Shown: positions 28,592-36,192 of the stretch, piece by piece
How positions within the stretch are numbered: the stretch's first letter is position 1
How the letters are laid out: every line of letters starts with the position of its first letter
Source: Saitoella complicata NRRL Y-17804
Lineage: Eukaryota; Ascomycota; Saitoellomycetes; Saitoellales; Saitoellaceae
NCBI RefSeq assembly: GCF_001661265.1
Contig: NW_017566996.1
Coordinates: 372,001 to 436,000 of the forward strand
Reading direction: 5' to 3'
DNA: 64,000 bases
Notes under the pieces: generated by a model
What the model was told of the DNA's origin: nothing
The model's database searches: none
The model's input: the letters and a program-made list of their open reading frames with translations, nothing else
Program-made: the position numbers and the translations under genes

Positions 28592-29678
28592 ACCGCCGCA
28601 CCCTCCCCTCCGCCTCTGGTACTGGCGCCGCCGGCGGCTTCATCGAGGTTCAGCCTCCTAAGAAGTCTGAGTTGCAGCCGAGCTATGCGCAGACTCTTGA
28701 AGGGGAGGACGATTCCAATTTGGGGTTTTATCCGAGGATGATTAATACGCTTGGGAGTTTCTTTGGGACTTGTGGGAGTATTCCTGGGTGTTTTTGTTGT
28801 CCGAATCCCTACAAGGTATTGCGCCTCTGCCCTCTTCTCTCCATCTACACAACCGTCTTTGCGGGGATGAATGCTGACGGACAATTGTCACGTAGGAAGT
28901 TCAACAAGGCAACGTCGGCCTCATCACGAAATTCGGTCGCTTCCACCGCGCCGTCGACCCTGGCCTCAGCAAGATTAACCCCTTCTCCGAGAAGCTCTTC
29001 CAAGTCGACATCAAAATCCAAGTCGTCGAGGTCCCGCGTCAAATCTGCATGACGAAAGATAACGTGAATGTCGTGATCAACTCGGTGATGTATTACCACA
29101 TTATCTCACCCCATCGCGCCGCGTTTGGCATTGCGAATGTGAGGCAGGCGTTGATCGAGCGTACGCAAACCACCCTCAGGGACGTGTTGGGCGCCAGAGT
29201 CCTCCAAGACGTGATCGAACGCCGCGAAGAAATCGCCCTCTCCATCGAAGAAATAATCGCCCACGTAGCCTCAACCTGGGGCGTAAAAGTCGAATCCATC
29301 CTCATCAAAGACATCGAATTCTCCACAGATCTCCAAGCTTCCCTCTCTATGGCCGCACAATCAAAGAGAATCGGAGAGAGTAAGATCATTACGGCGAAAG
29401 CGGAGGTGGAGGCGGCAAAGTTGATGAGGCAGAGTGCGGATATTTTGAGTAGTAGTGCGGCAATGCAGATTAGGTATTTGGAGACGATGCAGGCTATGGC
29501 GAAGACGGCGGGGGCGAAGGTTATTTTTATGCCGAGTTCGGGGGGTGGGGAGGGGGGTACCGGTGTTACCACTGTCCAGCCGGGGTTGCAGGGCAATGGG
29601 AGTTTGAGTCCGCCGATTGCAGGCTTTGGTGGTGGACTGGATGATGTGATGAAGGCTACGGTTTTGAACGATTACTAG
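28555..29678 (+). CDS. Stomatin-like SPFH/Band 7 membrane protein
   Basis: This is a stomatin-family scaffold protein of 347 aa. Exons are 28555–28815 and 28896–29678 (intron 80 bp). A polar N-terminus leads to a short Cys-rich hydrophobic segment (GTCGSIPGCFCCPNPYK, about residues 71–87) typical of hairpin insertion and palmitoylation. The SPFH domain (about 88–270) has GNVGLITKFGRFHRAVDPGL, NVVINSVMYYHI, RTQTTLRDVLG and WGVKVESILIKDIEF. The C-terminal oligomerisation helix has AEVEAAKLMRQSADILSS, followed by a Gly-rich tail. It is probably at the plasma membrane or an endomembrane; the exact site is not visible. Confidence 0.93.
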
Positions 29679-29994: not shown

Positions 29995-30351
29995 CTACCC
30001 TCCACTCACAGGCGGAATTACCGCAACTTCATCCCCAGCCTTAACCCTCGTCTCTGCCTTCCCAGCCAACTCCTCCTCCAGATCAACATACTCCACATTT
30101 ACCGCAAGCCCAGCTGTATTTATAACTTTCTCCATCTTCTCGCCGTGGCGCTCAATGATGAGTTTGACCGCCTCTTTCACTGTGATAGAGTCCGTGCCTG
30201 CTGGGAGGGGGATTGACTCTGATGAGAGGCCTGAAGCGGCGTCGCGCGAGGAAGCAAAGTATAACATTGTGAAGCTCTAAAATGTGTAGTTTGTTAGCAC
30301 TTGCAGGGTGCCAGTAAAGGAAAAATTGGTAATTACTTGAGATGAGGCCAT
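29995..30351 (-). CDS. MOCS2A: Molybdopterin synthase small subunit MOCS2A (MoaD/CnxG)
   Basis: This is a ubiquitin-fold sulfur carrier of molybdopterin synthase. Its C-terminal Gly-Gly is adenylated and thiolated by Uba4/MOCS3. Exons on the minus strand are 30337–30351 (15 nt, MASSQ) and 29995–30276 (intron 60 bp), giving 98 aa. The sequence SFTMLYFASSRDAAG-like start, VKEAVKLIIERHG and NVEYVDLEEELAG lead to DEVAVIPPVSGG at the terminus, the required double glycine. It is divergent from MOCS1, with 328 bp between starts. The large subunit MOCS2B is not in this window. Confidence 0.93.
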
Positions 30352-30679
30352 GGGAATTGGATGTGGAAGTGCACCGAGCCCGGGGAAAGTGATGTACAGT
30401 AACGTCAAGGCGTAGATGTCGCGATTCCGAATTCAGTATCAAGACTACGGATTAACATTCGCTTTCCAGTCGGTTGAATTCTCAGGTATCTTATCTCAGC
30501 TCATCCCATCACCCTCCGTATTGGCCGCTTTAGCCGTCGACCGCCGTCCAACCCGCGCCACATGATGCGCCCCCGCCGTATCTCGAGGTTTGGTGCAACG
30601 GCCCGCGGGAGTCGCCGAATCATCGAAGCATTGTTGTCAGCAGCATTTATCCTCGAGAACATCGACGACTGAGTCAAAA
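30352..30679. promoter_or_regulatory. Shared promoter region MOCS2A / MOCS1
   Basis: This 328-bp spacer lies between head-to-head starts of two genes of the same pathway and probably acts as a bidirectional promoter. No TATA box or known site was picked out. Shared regulation is inferred from layout. Confidence 0.5.
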
Positions 30680-32622
30680 ATGCTACAGACGAGATCAAGG
30701 ACGATGTTGACAAGAAGTGCGAGACGGATCACTGCGAGGAATGCCGTAAAAGTGGGTGGTCTGCGGCATCACTCGGCTGCTGCGGCAACGGCGGAATCAT
30801 TCACTCTCCCTCCCATCGCGCTCCCAGCTCAATCCTTCGAGCATACACGCTCACCGAAGCCTCTGATCAAAGACGCCCTTCCCTTCTCCGCCTTCCTAAC
30901 CGACAACCACAGCCGTCAACACACCTACCTCCGCATCTCCATCACCGAGAAATGCAACCTCCGCTGTACTTATTGCATGCCCGAAGAAGGCGTCGAGCTA
31001 TCCCCTCCGGAGCATCTACTGACCACGGATGAGATTCTGAAGATCGCGGAGGTGTTTGTGGGGCAGGGGGTTACGAAGATCAGGTTGACAGGTGGGGAGC
31101 CGACCGTGAGGAAGGATATTGTCCAGTTGGTGGAGCGCTTGGGGAGGTTGAAGGAGAAGGGGTTGAAGGAGTTGGCGATGACGTCAAATGGGATTGCGTT
31201 GGCTAGGAAGCTGCCGGCGTTGGTGAAGGGCGGGTTGACGCATTTGAATTTGTCGTTGGATACGCTGGATCCGTTCAAGTACCAGATGATGGCGCGACGG
31301 AAGGGGTTGGAGGCTGTGTTGAAGTGTATCGATACGGCACTTGCGTTGGGAGTACAGCCGCTGAAGATCAATTCGGTGGTTATCCGGAATGTAAATGATG
31401 CCGAGATCCTGGATTTTGTCGCTATGACGAAGGACAAGCCCGTGGAGGTCCGGTTCATTGAGTACATGCCCTTCGACGGCAACCGTTGGAATAAGGAAAA
31501 GATGCTGTCCTACCAGGAGATGTTGGAGAGGATCCAGGCGGAGTACCCTACATTCGAGAAAGTCAAGGATCACGAGAACGACACCTCCAAGACCTACCGC
31601 GTTCCCGGCTTCGCAGGTCGCATTGGGTTCATCACGAGTATGACAAATCACTTCTGCGGAACCTGCAACAGACTACGGATAACCTCCGACGGAAACCTCA
31701 AAGTCTGCCTCTTCGGCAACGCCGAAGTCAGCCTTCGGGACCTCCTCCGCCAACCAGACATCACCGAAGACAAGCTACTAGAAACGATCGGCATGGCAGT
31801 CAAGCGCAAACACAAGCAACACGCCGGAATCGGGAACCTGGAGCACATGAAGAACAGACCGATGATTTTGATTGGGGGTTAGTCATTCATTTTGTATGTC
31901 CGTGTCCTCGCAGAGCGAAGTCAAGTGCTAACGTATGGGTGGTTTTAGATGGGATGAGGAAGACGAAACTACAGTTTGAAAGGCGTTTGAGGAGTTCTTT
32001 TACAGCATTCTCGGCATATATACCCGTGGGATTAACATATTTACCATTTACACCGGCTCTTTCATTTGCGAGGGCATATTCTACGAAGCAACCGCCACCA
32101 CCAGCAGGCGAGAAGCTCACACATGTCAACGAGGCGGGACACGCTCACATGGTCAACGTCGGCGACAAGCAAGAAACCAAACGCATCGCAACAGCCCGCG
32201 CAACAATCACCTTCACAAGCCCCCAAACTCTCGCCCTCATCACCTCCAACTCCCTCAAAAAGGGCGACGTCCTCGCCACTGCCCGAATCGCAGGAATTAT
32301 GGCAACAAAACGGACAGCAGACCTAATCCCCCTCTGCCACAACATCCCTATTTCAAAGGTCTCCGTCACCTTGCTCCCGGTGTCTGGGTCGACGGATCAG
32401 GTTGAGGTTGAATGTACGGTCGAGTGTCGTGGACAGACAGGGGTCGAGATGGAGGCTTTGGTGGGGTGTAGTAATGCGGCGTTGACAGTGTATGATATGT
32501 GTAAGGCTGTGGATCGGGGGATGAGGGTCGATGGGATGAGGGTCGTGGAGAAGAGGGGCGGGAAGAGTGGGGATTGGAGGGAGGGGAGGGATGGACAGTT
32601 GGTCCATGACCATAAGGTGTAG
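30680..32622 (+). CDS. MOCS1: Molybdenum cofactor biosynthesis protein MOCS1 (MOCS1A–MOCS1B, CnxABC)
   Basis: This gene makes cyclic pyranopterin monophosphate from GTP, the first step of molybdenum cofactor synthesis, in mitochondria. Exon 1 (30680–31877) is MoaA-like: a basic presequence, the radical-SAM motif CNLRCTYCMPEEG, GGEPTVRKD, and the second Fe–S cluster region CGTCNRLRITSDGNLKVC. Exon 2 (31949–32622) is MoaC-like: LIPLCHNIPISK, GVEMEALVGCSNAALTVYD. Spliced across a 71-bp intron they fuse into 623 aa. If the intron is retained, exon 1 continues IGG then TAG (stop 31880–31882), giving a free MOCS1A with terminal Gly-Gly. That terminus is essential for MOCS1A activity in animals. Exon 2 opens with an Arg-rich presequence-like stretch ending RAYSTKQ. 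Start 30680 is the first ATG giving a mitochondrial presequence. Confidence 0.94.
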
Positions 32623-32652
32623 TAGGTGTAGGAGGGTGTGTATTGTCAATTC

Positions 32653-33571
32653 TTATTTTTCCTCGGAGTCGGTGAATGGCGAAATGTGTTCCTTAGGGTG
32701 TCTCCGGCCACGGTATTGCGCAGGCTGCCTGTCTCCATGGTGTTCATTTCCCTTCACATCGCGCAGAGCTTCCTTTGCAACGGCTCCACTTGCGTTCCTT
32801 TGATCTTCCGTCGGGGGGAAGTATTTCGATACAGCTTTCAGGTATGCATCTTCAACCGAATTCCGGTAACAGCAAAACACAATGCGCTCGAACTGTACTT
32901 CACATTAGCCTCAAAACTCCCATACTTCTAACCGGATACTGACCTTGTCCTCGTATTTCTCCAACATCCCCCTCACCGCCTCCAACGCAACATCCGCTGC
33001 CTCATCAATAGGATAATACAGTCTCCCCGTACTGATCGCCGGAAACGCAATACTCGTAGCCCGAACCTCCATCGCCTTCTCCATACAATTCACATAGCAC
33101 TCCTTCAACAACCTCGGCGCATCTTCTTCGGCATCACCCCACTCGTCGTAATATCTCGGTCCGGAGGTGTGGATGATCCAATTTGCTGCGATCAACATAG
33201 AAGGGTAGTGGACGCGTGTTACCTTTGCTTCAGCGATTTTGACGCCCATTAGGCGGCGGGTATCTTCCAGAAGGAGTTTACCGCCGGCGTCGTAGAGTGC
33301 TGCGGAGAGGGTGTGTTTGCCGAGGAGGGATCTCGAGCCGGCGTGGACGATTGCATGGGTTTTGATTTTGGTGAGGTCGCCGTTCCATATTGAGATTTTG
33401 TCGTTTAGAATGGTTGAAGGGTTGAAGGGAGGATCTATGAAAGACGTTCTGTTAGTAATGTGTCTGGTAGGATTCAGTGCAGACATCCTCACTGTTGGAA
33501 GCTCGAAGGCCGAGGCGGTAGAGATGTCCTAGAGTAGGGATGTTTTTAAAGAAAGTCGCAGATGCTGTCAT
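32653..33571 (-). CDS. Divergent macrodomain protein
   Basis: This is a macrodomain (ADP-ribose-binding fold) protein of 269 aa. Exons on the minus strand are 33493–33571, 32944–33434 and 32653–32892 (introns 58 and 51 bp). The N-terminal IPTLGHLYRLG is the usual lead-in of fungal homologues. The fold can be followed: ISIWNGDLTKIKTHAIV, WIIHTSGPRYYDE, LLKECYVNCMEKA, SIAFPAISTGRLYYP, and FERIVFCCYRNSVEDAY. The ligand loop is unusual: the canonical NAAN..LLGGGGVDGAIH region reads HAGSRSLLGKHTLSAAL, so the catalytic Asn and the Gly-rich loop are missing. Hydrolase activity is therefore doubtful. The C-terminus has an extra Arg/His-rich tail. It is convergent with MOCS1, 30 bp from its stop. Confidence 0.87.
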
Positions 33572-33816: not shown

Positions 33817-36192
33817 CTAAATTCTCTCATAGAACAGCAAGTATGCTTTAGCCTCAAGTACCTCCGCTTCAGTCGCCGCCCGTACACTCGTATCACTAGC
33901 ATAACACCACCGTCTATGTTCCCAAACCTTCGGCTTCTCCTCCACCGAAGGAGCGTCCGTAACCGATTTCTTCGCTGCCTCCTCCGCTAACGTGATGCGT
34001 GGGTTGAGTTGGTAGGAAATGTAGTGACCACCCGACATCGTACCTATGTGTACCACGACGCCCACTAGTCTGTATTTCGTGCTGACTCCTTCGGTGCTCG
34101 TGGTTTTGTCCATGCTGTCCGGAGCGATGAACGGCTGGATGTCAATCTCGTGTTCGAACTCCACGAAATCGTCGATCTTCCGCATAGAACGGCCGACTTG
34201 CTGGAAGCGCTTGAGGTGGAGGGTAAGAACCTTTGGTGGTGTAGCAATGACGAAGCGCTTATACGCAGTTCGCATAACCGTAGGCTTCTTCTCCTCTTTC
34301 TTCTCTTCTTTCTCGTCTGAAGGTGGCGATGGCGCTGGAGCAGTGGTGTTGGATTCAGTCGTAGGAGCGGTCATGTATGATTGCGCCGTGGACCCATTCG
34401 TCGATGACGGCGCCGGACTCACATCAACGTGCACGAAACTCTCATCAGACGTATCCGACGCTGCATCATTCTGCGCCTCCACCTCCATCTTCTCTTCCTC
34501 AATTCGCATCTCAACCGCCTCCTCAACCTGCTGAACCTCCATCTTCGCCCCCGCAGCAATCTTCCCACACTCCTCACATGCATAGGCATTTCCCCCCTCC
34601 AACTTCTCAACCTGAAAGAACTCCTCCATACAATCCCAAATACTGACTTGTCCTTTCTTCATCTTCGCCGTACCCGCTGTTGCAGATGCTTGCTGACCCC
34701 ATGATACAAGGTTTCGGAGGTACGCGCCCCATTCCTCCTTCTTCTGTTCGGGCCCGGGGGATGCTCGGGTGGAACTCTTCCGACGCGAGGTAGATTTGGA
34801 ACGGTCGAGACCGAGTGACATACCCGCCAACCGACCTCTAAGCCCTGCATCCTCATCGGCATCATCGCCATCCTCATCAGCAGAACTAACAACAGCCGTT
34901 AACTCCGGCCTGGCATCATCCATCGACAACCGACTCCGATCCGTCCCCCCGCTTTTGGCAGACTCGTTACTTTCTCTTCTCGTCCTTCTATCTCTCGAGG
35001 AGAACCTCATTGCGGCCTTGAGTCTATCCCGTTTTCGCATCCGTTTTTCTCTGTCCTCGATCGCACTCTTGCTCAACTCCACCTCAGGCGCACTTTCAAA
35101 CCCAGATGCCCTACCTCCACCTAATGAAGGCACAGGCGGTGGTTTGACCATCCCCGGTGTCAAAACAGGCTTACACCCCAAACTCAACTCCCCAAAATCC
35201 TCGAAGTTGGTAGACACGTTCTTACACGTATCACAAACGACCATACTCGCCAGCGTACCCCCGAAAACCTGATCCACAAATGTCCGTTTCGGCCTCGTTT
35301 TCCCCGTCGGTTGTTTTTGCGCCAATTCCCGTTCTTCCTGCGTCCATGTTTTGATTTCCTCTGTCCTCATTCCCTCCAATAAGGTGCGCAACAGCTCTTG
35401 GGCATCTTGCTGGTCTCCGATTCGACGGAATGTTGAACCGCCTTTCTTGCCGATTTGGGTCATGAGGCCCACGGGGGAGATGGACTGTGTACTCTTGCTA
35501 TTGTAAAAATCGTCAAGAAGCGCGGTGAATGCGGCTGTTAGAGGTCCAGTCGAGGATGGCGGGGGAAACGCAGAGATGAACTCGTGTAATGGTGATAGGG
35601 ATGCCATCACCTGGAACACGGAGTTGAAGTAGCAAGTATTGCCGAGGTTGACAAGACCCGGGTTTCGTGTCTTGAAACCCGCATCATCTTTCTTACTCCC
35701 CTTTCCCTTCTTTGCTGTCGTTTTTGTCTCCTTGACCGCACGTTCCTCACTCTTCTCCTCCATTTTGCGTGCCCATTTCTCAACCACGGCTTTCACCTCC
35801 GCAATAACCGCATTCTTCGTCCCATTCGGTTTTATATCGTCGTCGCACGCATAACACCACACTTCCCCAGTATTGAGGTTAATCGTAAGTGGATGCTGTG
35901 TCGCTTCCCAATGCGCAACACCATGCCCAGCATCAGTCCTCGTACAGAACGGCACTGCACACGTCAAGCACAACACAGCTCCACCCTCCGGTGCCCCCAC
36001 ATTCTTATCAGCCGCCGCACACGAAAAACAAACCGGACTCCCAGTTTTCTGAGATGTAAACCCAGCCAACGCTCGTTTCACCTTCGGTACACGCACCCCT
36101 TTCTTGAGATGCGCACACTTCTTCCCCCCTTCATTTCCGGACTCATCCGACGAAACCTCCGAGATGAGGATTTCAGGGAGATCCTCGGTCAT
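33817..36192 (-). CDS. USP16/USP45-type ubiquitin-specific protease
   Basis: This is a cysteine deubiquitinase in one exon (791 aa). A zinc-finger UBP domain (about residues 25–125) has CAHLKKG, CFSC, CLTC, CTRTDAGHGVAHWEATQHPL and WCYACDD. The UCH domain begins GLVNLGNTCYFNSVFQVM with catalytic Cys about residue 187, continues FRRIGDQQDAQELLRTLLEG and VFGGTLASMVVCDTCKNVS, and ends GTMSGGHYISYQLN with the catalytic His and RRWCYASDTSV. Long Ser/Glu-rich inserts separate the two catalytic parts, as in USP16. The human homologue acts on histone H2A and ribosomal proteins; the target here is inferred only. Confidence 0.92.
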   Translation of the reverse strand: MTEDLPEILISEVSSDESGNEGGKKCAHLKKGVRVPKVKRALAGFTSQKTGSPVCFSCAAADKNVGAPEGGAVLCLTCAVPFCTRTDAGHGVAHWEATQHPLTINLNTGEVWCYACDDDIKPNGTKNAVIAEVKAVVEKWARKMEEKSEERAVKETKTTAKKGKGSKKDDAGFKTRNPGLVNLGNTCYFNSVFQVMASLSPLHEFISAFPPPSSTGPLTAAFTALLDDFYNSKSTQSISPVGLMTQIGKKGGSTFRRIGDQQDAQELLRTLLEGMRTEEIKTWTQEERELAQKQPTGKTRPKRTFVDQVFGGTLASMVVCDTCKNVSTNFEDFGELSLGCKPVLTPGMVKPPPVPSLGGGRASGFESAPEVELSKSAIEDREKRMRKRDRLKAAMRFSSRDRRTRRESNESAKSGGTDRSRLSMDDARPELTAVVSSADEDGDDADEDAGLRGRLAGMSLGLDRSKSTSRRKSSTRASPGPEQKKEEWGAYLRNLVSWGQQASATAGTAKMKKGQVSIWDCMEEFFQVEKLEGGNAYACEECGKIAAGAKMEVQQVEEAVEMRIEEEKMEVEAQNDAASDTSDESFVHVDVSPAPSSTNGSTAQSYMTAPTTESNTTAPAPSPPSDEKEEKKEEKKPTVMRTAYKRFVIATPPKVLTLHLKRFQQVGRSMRKIDDFVEFEHEIDIQPFIAPDSMDKTTSTEGVSTKYRLVGVVVHIGTMSGGHYISYQLNPRITLAEEAAKKSVTDAPSVEEKPKVWEHRRWCYASDTSVRAATEAEVLEAKAYLLFYERI

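Follow-up and report, generated by a model that had tools for sequence, protein, structure and literature searches.

The MOCS1 gene of Saitoella complicata raises the question of how a single gene can provide both a free MOCS1A that ends in Gly-Gly and a fusion of MOCS1A with MOCS1B. The window, by which we mean the whole stretch of 64,000 nt that was analysed, had been given a first-pass annotation in which this choice was proposed to depend on the retention or removal of one 71-bp intron. The last Gly codon of MOCS1A and the splice donor were said to be the same bases, and a parallel was drawn with animals, in which MOCS1A would need a free Gly-Gly end for activity. The features of the locus are collected in Table 1.

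Table 1. Features of the MOCS1 locus and its divergent neighbour (positions in the window)
Feature	Position	Strand	Basis
MoaD/MOCS2A gene, ends VSGG	29995..30351	-	ThiS 2.1e-10; moaD 1.3e-13, below its cut-off
MOCS1 gene, MoaA-type enzyme followed by MoaC-type enzyme	30680-32622	+	profile matches
Exon 1, MOCS1A-coding (MoaA-type radical SAM GTP 3',8-cyclase)	30680..31877	+	TIGR02666, Radical_SAM, Mob_synth_C
GGG GGT TAG, Gly-Gly-stop of free MOCS1A	31874..31882	+	direct reading
71-nt intron, donor GTTAGT	31878..31948	+	direct reading, in silico splicing
Candidate alternative 55-nt intron, donor GTATGT	31894..31948	+	in silico splicing, donor word counts
Branch-site motif GCTAAC, usable for both introns	31927..31932	+	direct reading, pattern matches
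Exon 2, linker, MOCS1B (MoaC) domain and stop	31949..32622	+	NF006870, TIGR00581, PF01967
Linker MRKTKLQFERRLRSSF...SFARAYS, presequence-like, candidate cleavage site R-A-Y/S	31954..32082	+	charge, motif scan

The MOCS1 gene and the end of MOCS1A

Profile searches confirmed the identity of the gene. The MOCS1A exon matched TIGR02666 (moaA) with an E value of 7.9e-111 and 370 bits (cut-off 284) over model positions 1-336 of 336, and the Radical_SAM and Mob_synth_C domains were also matched. Its N-terminal 42 amino acids have a net charge of +7 and are basic and of a mitochondrial type. The MOCS1B exon matched NF006870 (E 2.8e-65), TIGR00581 (E 3.5e-55; 186 bits, cut-off 141.5) and PF01967 (E 5.2e-54; 182 bits).

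Exon 1 ends with ATT (31871-31873), GGG (31874-31876) and a single G (31877), and the intron opens with GT (31878-31879) and TAG (31880-31882), base for base as had been annotated. The donor of the 71-nt intron is thus the last GT of GGT, the second Gly codon (31877-31879), while the acceptor, TTTTAG, ends at 31948. In silico, RNA that retains the intron encodes a product of 400 amino acids with the C-terminus NRPMILIGG, whereas removal of 31878-31948 yields an in-frame MOCS1A-MOCS1B fusion of 623 amino acids with the junction NRPMILIGDGMRKTK, in which Asp takes the place of the terminal Gly. The intron length, the Ile-Gly-Gly-stop of unspliced RNA, the loss of this stop and joining of MOCS1B upon splicing, and the use of the same bases for Gly codon and donor, all put forward in the first-pass annotation, were in this way confirmed. 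Retention giving A with a Gly-Gly end and removal giving A-B in frame is the pair of outcomes by which a nit-7-type gene is recognized.

Because the match to TIGR02666 runs to the last model position, the stop inside the intron sits at the family's own C-terminus. Relatives were collected by scanning bacterial and archaeal genomes with six search peptides, one of which lies near the tail, the GG not being part of it; of 579 stretches that encode relatives the best 80 were kept, each bacterial by its title, and in all 80 of them GG precedes the stop. Judged from this match and these sequences, Gly-Gly is the true C-terminus of MoaA and the position of the Gly-Gly-stop is not due to chance, in agreement with the proposed logic of a free, Gly-Gly-ended MOCS1A as opposed to an A-B fusion. 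A PDB search at E 1e-10 returned five distinct sequences, two of which are named MoaA (1tv7, 1tv8, 2fb3, 2fb2), while the other three belong to radical SAM enzymes less closely related; the alignments with the MoaA chains end at residue 304 of 340, short of the tail.

In a profile search of the assembly (14.1 Mb, 34 contigs), the C-terminal domain of MoaA and MoaC were each matched once, both in the MOCS1 gene, and a second MoaA gene was not found. A search of viral contigs found none that encodes a relative of MOCS1, and no Rfam family reached its gathering score in 31000-32700.

Known genes with the same layout

The original genetics of nit-7 of Neurospora crassa are reportedly those of Probst et al. 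2014, and human and animal MOCS1 is said to have been studied by Gray and Nicholls 2000 and Mayr et al. 2020. The first-pass annotation held that an arrangement such as that of S. complicata was not described in fungi. This part of it has to be given up, as the same arrangement, with experiments, is found in N. crassa nit-7 (PMC7232280). According to that paper, nit-7 has one intron. Its non-spliced RNA is the source of NIT-7A, whose Gly-Gly motif lies in the coding sequence of intron 1, and removal of nucleotides 1460-1696 gives NIT-7AB. The donor mutant 1461T>C showed no significant growth on nitrate and, among the transcripts tested, only the non-spliced RNA rose significantly on nitrate. 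In a third variant, which was not essential, 1469-1696 is removed, the donor lying just past the stop (PMC7232280).

The two fungal genes have in common a MoaA exon, one intron, a linker and a MoaC exon, as well as a stop and Gly-Gly in the intron, a phase 1 donor that splits a Gly codon behind its first base and an in-frame fusion. A second donor shortly past the stop, a candidate one in S. complicata, is also shared; it is not known to be general in nit-7-type genes. The genes differ in their dimensions. In N. crassa, for which the positions of the stop and the split codon were derived from construct ends 1464 (no stop) and 1467 (stop) and from the mutants 1461T>C and 1470T>C in PMC7232280 and not from the sequence, the donor lies within the codon of the first Gly (codon 487), the second being wholly intronic, and the stop begins at intron base 6, whereas in S. 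complicata the second Gly is split and the stop begins at base 3. The intron is 237 nt long in nit-7 and 71 nt in S. complicata, the second donor lies 9 nt as opposed to 16 nt downstream of the first, and the linker is about 135 as opposed to about 50 amino acids long. The overlap of donor and Gly-Gly can thus move by one codon while the logic is unchanged. Aspergillus nidulans cnxABC is, by name, a further nit-7 homolog (PMC7232280). The MOCS1 gene of S. complicata joins the known nit-7 arrangement, with the two donor-like sites as a detail of its own spacing; next to nit-7 itself, it is a second case in fungi of this layout for making MOCS1A and MOCS1B separately.

In humans and animals, too, alternative splicing sets free MOCS1A against MOCS1AB, and human MOCS1 has an internal targeting motif in front of MOCS1B and a proteolytic release of MOCS1B, as the S. 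complicata gene would have. Human MOCS1 is different in that it has ten exons, with the choice made in exon 9, and in that additional exon 1 variants alter targeting (PMC9607355). The two sources place the cut of the human fusion differently, PMC9607355 in the matrix and PMC7232280, citing the same work, in the cytosol.

We propose that the S. complicata gene is a nit-7-type fungal MOCS1, in which one pre-mRNA would give two products. When the donor at 31878 is used, the stop would be removed and the A-B fusion made; its A domain, without a free Gly-Gly, would mainly serve to carry MOCS1B into the mitochondria, in which a protease would cut the fusion in the linker. When this donor is left unused, either by retention of the intron or by splicing from 31894, the Gly-Gly-stop would be kept and active free MOCS1A made. 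To such a switch between MOCS1A and the A-B fusion, by either route to free A, we assign a probability of roughly 0.8. By analogy with N. crassa, both isoforms would be made and needed, nitrate would favour the A form, and the fusion would be cleaved once imported. Use of the donor at 31894 and cleavage at RAY/S are inferred only from features of the S. complicata DNA and the protein encoded by it.

Two donor-like sites around the MOCS1A stop

GTATGT at 31894 starts 11 nt past the stop and 16 nt downstream of the first donor, with which it can share GCTAAC and the acceptor. Splicing from it would keep the Gly-Gly-stop, with 11 nt between the stop and the junction, and in silico the same 400-amino-acid protein ending in IGG-stop is encoded. 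At the acceptor, ATGGGATGA (31949-31957) specifies a Met-Gly-stop that overlaps, as ATGA, the ATG in frame with MOCS1B in exon 2; after splicing from 31894 this small reading frame (31949) would lie 11 nt past the stop of MOCS1A.

The two donors were compared by counting, genome-wide, a pattern consisting of a donor word, 22-52 nt, GCTAAC, 4-22 nt and YAG, with reversed patterns as controls. With the counts limited to introns that have the branch word GCTAAC, and with some donors counted double when two YAG fit, 163 matches were obtained for GTATGT (reversed control 30), 81 for GTAAGT (32), 14 for GTTAGT (24) and 9 for the decoy GATAGT (23). Among the three donor words GTATGT has the most matches, while GTTAGT is not enriched over its reversed control (14 vs 24). 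It does exceed the decoy rate, with 14 seen and 6.5 expected (P 0.007). Among the matches listed for GTATGT (100 of 163, including 31894), the median intron length is 55 nt, and 8 of the 100 are at least 71 nt long. By the word counts and this median, the site at 31894 thus looks like the start of an intron of the usual kind for this genome, and GTTAGT is a donor of a rare type. By the reversed-pattern control the fusion-making donor would thus be weak on this test. When the preceding base was included, TGTATGT gave 30 matches (reversed control 3), GGTTAGT 9 (control 5) and GGTATGT 85 (control 9). Per local occurrence, TGTATGT and GGTTAGT scored 1.07 and 0.53, and since this difference is only about two-fold and not significant (P 0.16), the donor at 31894 is not clearly stronger in its context. 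The two donors may therefore be of similar strength, as a switch would need.

Local enrichment of the branch site RCTRAC (9 seen and 1.6 expected for GTATGT, 1 seen and 0.55 expected for GTTAGT) was based on numbers too small for ranking the donors. An intron prediction from coding scores over 264 kb was dropped: it gave 31 GT introns as compared to 22-30 for five decoy dinucleotides, and the MOCS1 locus was absent from it.

These observations suggest that free MOCS1A may come from competition between donors as well as from retention. In its full form, this reading makes the choice between A and A-B one between two competing 5' splice sites that flank the MOCS1A stop and share one branch site and acceptor. 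The donor of the common type after the stop would give free A and the rare-type donor in the last Gly codon the fusion, with retention as just one output; the layout, as in N. crassa with different spacing, would perhaps be old in ascomycetes. We put this forward tentatively, at somewhat less than even odds. The two-donor layout offers a simple handle on how cofactor supply may be set by splice-site choice in a fungus.

A narrower form of the switch, in which free MOCS1A arises solely from retention of the 71-nt intron and the donor at 31894 is never used, is a serious possibility that likewise falls short of an even chance. It is the route to which NIT-7A was attributed in N. crassa, in which the second-donor variant was dispensable (PMC7232280), and it is in line with the lack of significance of the context-corrected difference between the donors (P 0.16). 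Against it, the word after the stop is the one with the most matches among the three donor words, and the intron that it would define has the median length found for GTATGT among the matches listed. By chance, a GTATGT would begin within 20 nt past the stop with a probability of about 0.005, and one of any four strong donors with a probability of 0.015, both figures having been computed post hoc, with the site already seen. The proposal that the choice is made by retention of one intron is incomplete, as splicing from 31894 could also yield the free protein.

According to a further reading, the gene is bicistronic: 31894 would be the normal donor, 31878 would hardly be used, and MOCS1B would be translated separately, with its own presequence, from the ATG at 31954, which lies 16 nt past the MOCS1A stop in RNA spliced from 31894. 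A. nidulans cnxABC was at one time considered in these terms (PMC7232280), and the count of GTTAGT, not above its reversed control, together with the in-frame ATG of exon 2 and the basic, presequence-like 42 amino acids after it, would agree with it. We nevertheless regard it as unlikely, as the frame is kept exactly across the 71-nt junction and the first ATG past the stop (31949) yields Met-Gly-stop only. In N. crassa, moreover, complementation failed with free NIT-7B, and the splice that forms the fusion was needed (PMC7232280). That splicing from 31878 is constitutive, with only the fusion made and the Gly-Gly-stop a relic, would fit the clean continuation of the frame into MOCS1B but is very improbable, as the fusion lacks the Gly-Gly end kept by all 80 of the bacterial relatives retained from the scan (the best 80 of 579 stretches), another MoaA gene was not found in the assembly, GTTAGT is a rare type of donor and N. 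crassa also requires a separate A (PMC7232280).

The linker of MOCS1B and the neighbouring genes

In the fusion expected from the switch, exon 2 starts with GDG, the D being created at the junction, followed by MRKTKLQFERRLRSSFTAFSAYIPVGLTYLPFTPALSFARAYST and the MoaC domain. The first ATG of the linker (31954) is in frame with MOCS1B. Mitochondrial processing enzymes cleave after motifs of the type R-x-[FYL]-[SA]; a literature search found no paper on this presequence motif rule. The first 42 residues of the linker from this Met carry a net charge of +6 with a single acidic residue, their helical moment reaches at most 0.45, and RAY/S is the sole such motif in the 623-amino-acid fusion. In a comparison with 88 long ORFs (264 kb), a stretch of residues equally strong was present in 21 ORFs, and in 2 ORFs a stretch of this strength had a motif of this type close to its end, corresponding to 220 and 12, respectively, of 46,683 stretches compared. 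The linker in front of MOCS1B looks like a mitochondrial presequence, and RAY/S is a candidate site of the cut that frees MOCS1B. MOCS1B made on its own from the ATG at 31954 could be importable, unlike free NIT-7B of N. crassa.

The MoaD/MOCS2A gene next to MOCS1 has a predicted intron of 60 nt (30277-30336). The two genes lie head to head with 328 bp between their start codons, and two genes for the molybdenum cofactor may therefore share a promoter. One GATAAG is present in this region, at 30490, and was not counted as evidence; over the window, GATAAG occurs at the chance level (22 seen, 22.0 expected), as do CTCCGNGG sites (13 seen, 11.25 expected). The assembly also carries MoaE and a nitrate reductase, in which molybdopterin, dimerisation, cytochrome b5 and FAD domains are present, and molybdenum cofactor domains occur at two other loci; the cofactor pathway thus has customers. 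Just 3' of MOCS1 a macro-domain protein (PF01661) is encoded at 32911-33492 on the minus strand, followed on the same strand by a ubiquitin carboxyl-terminal hydrolase of 791 amino acids with a zf-UBP finger (33817-36192). On the other side, a Band 7/SPFH-domain protein is encoded on the plus strand at 29049-29678, approximately 300 bp away from where the MoaD gene ends.
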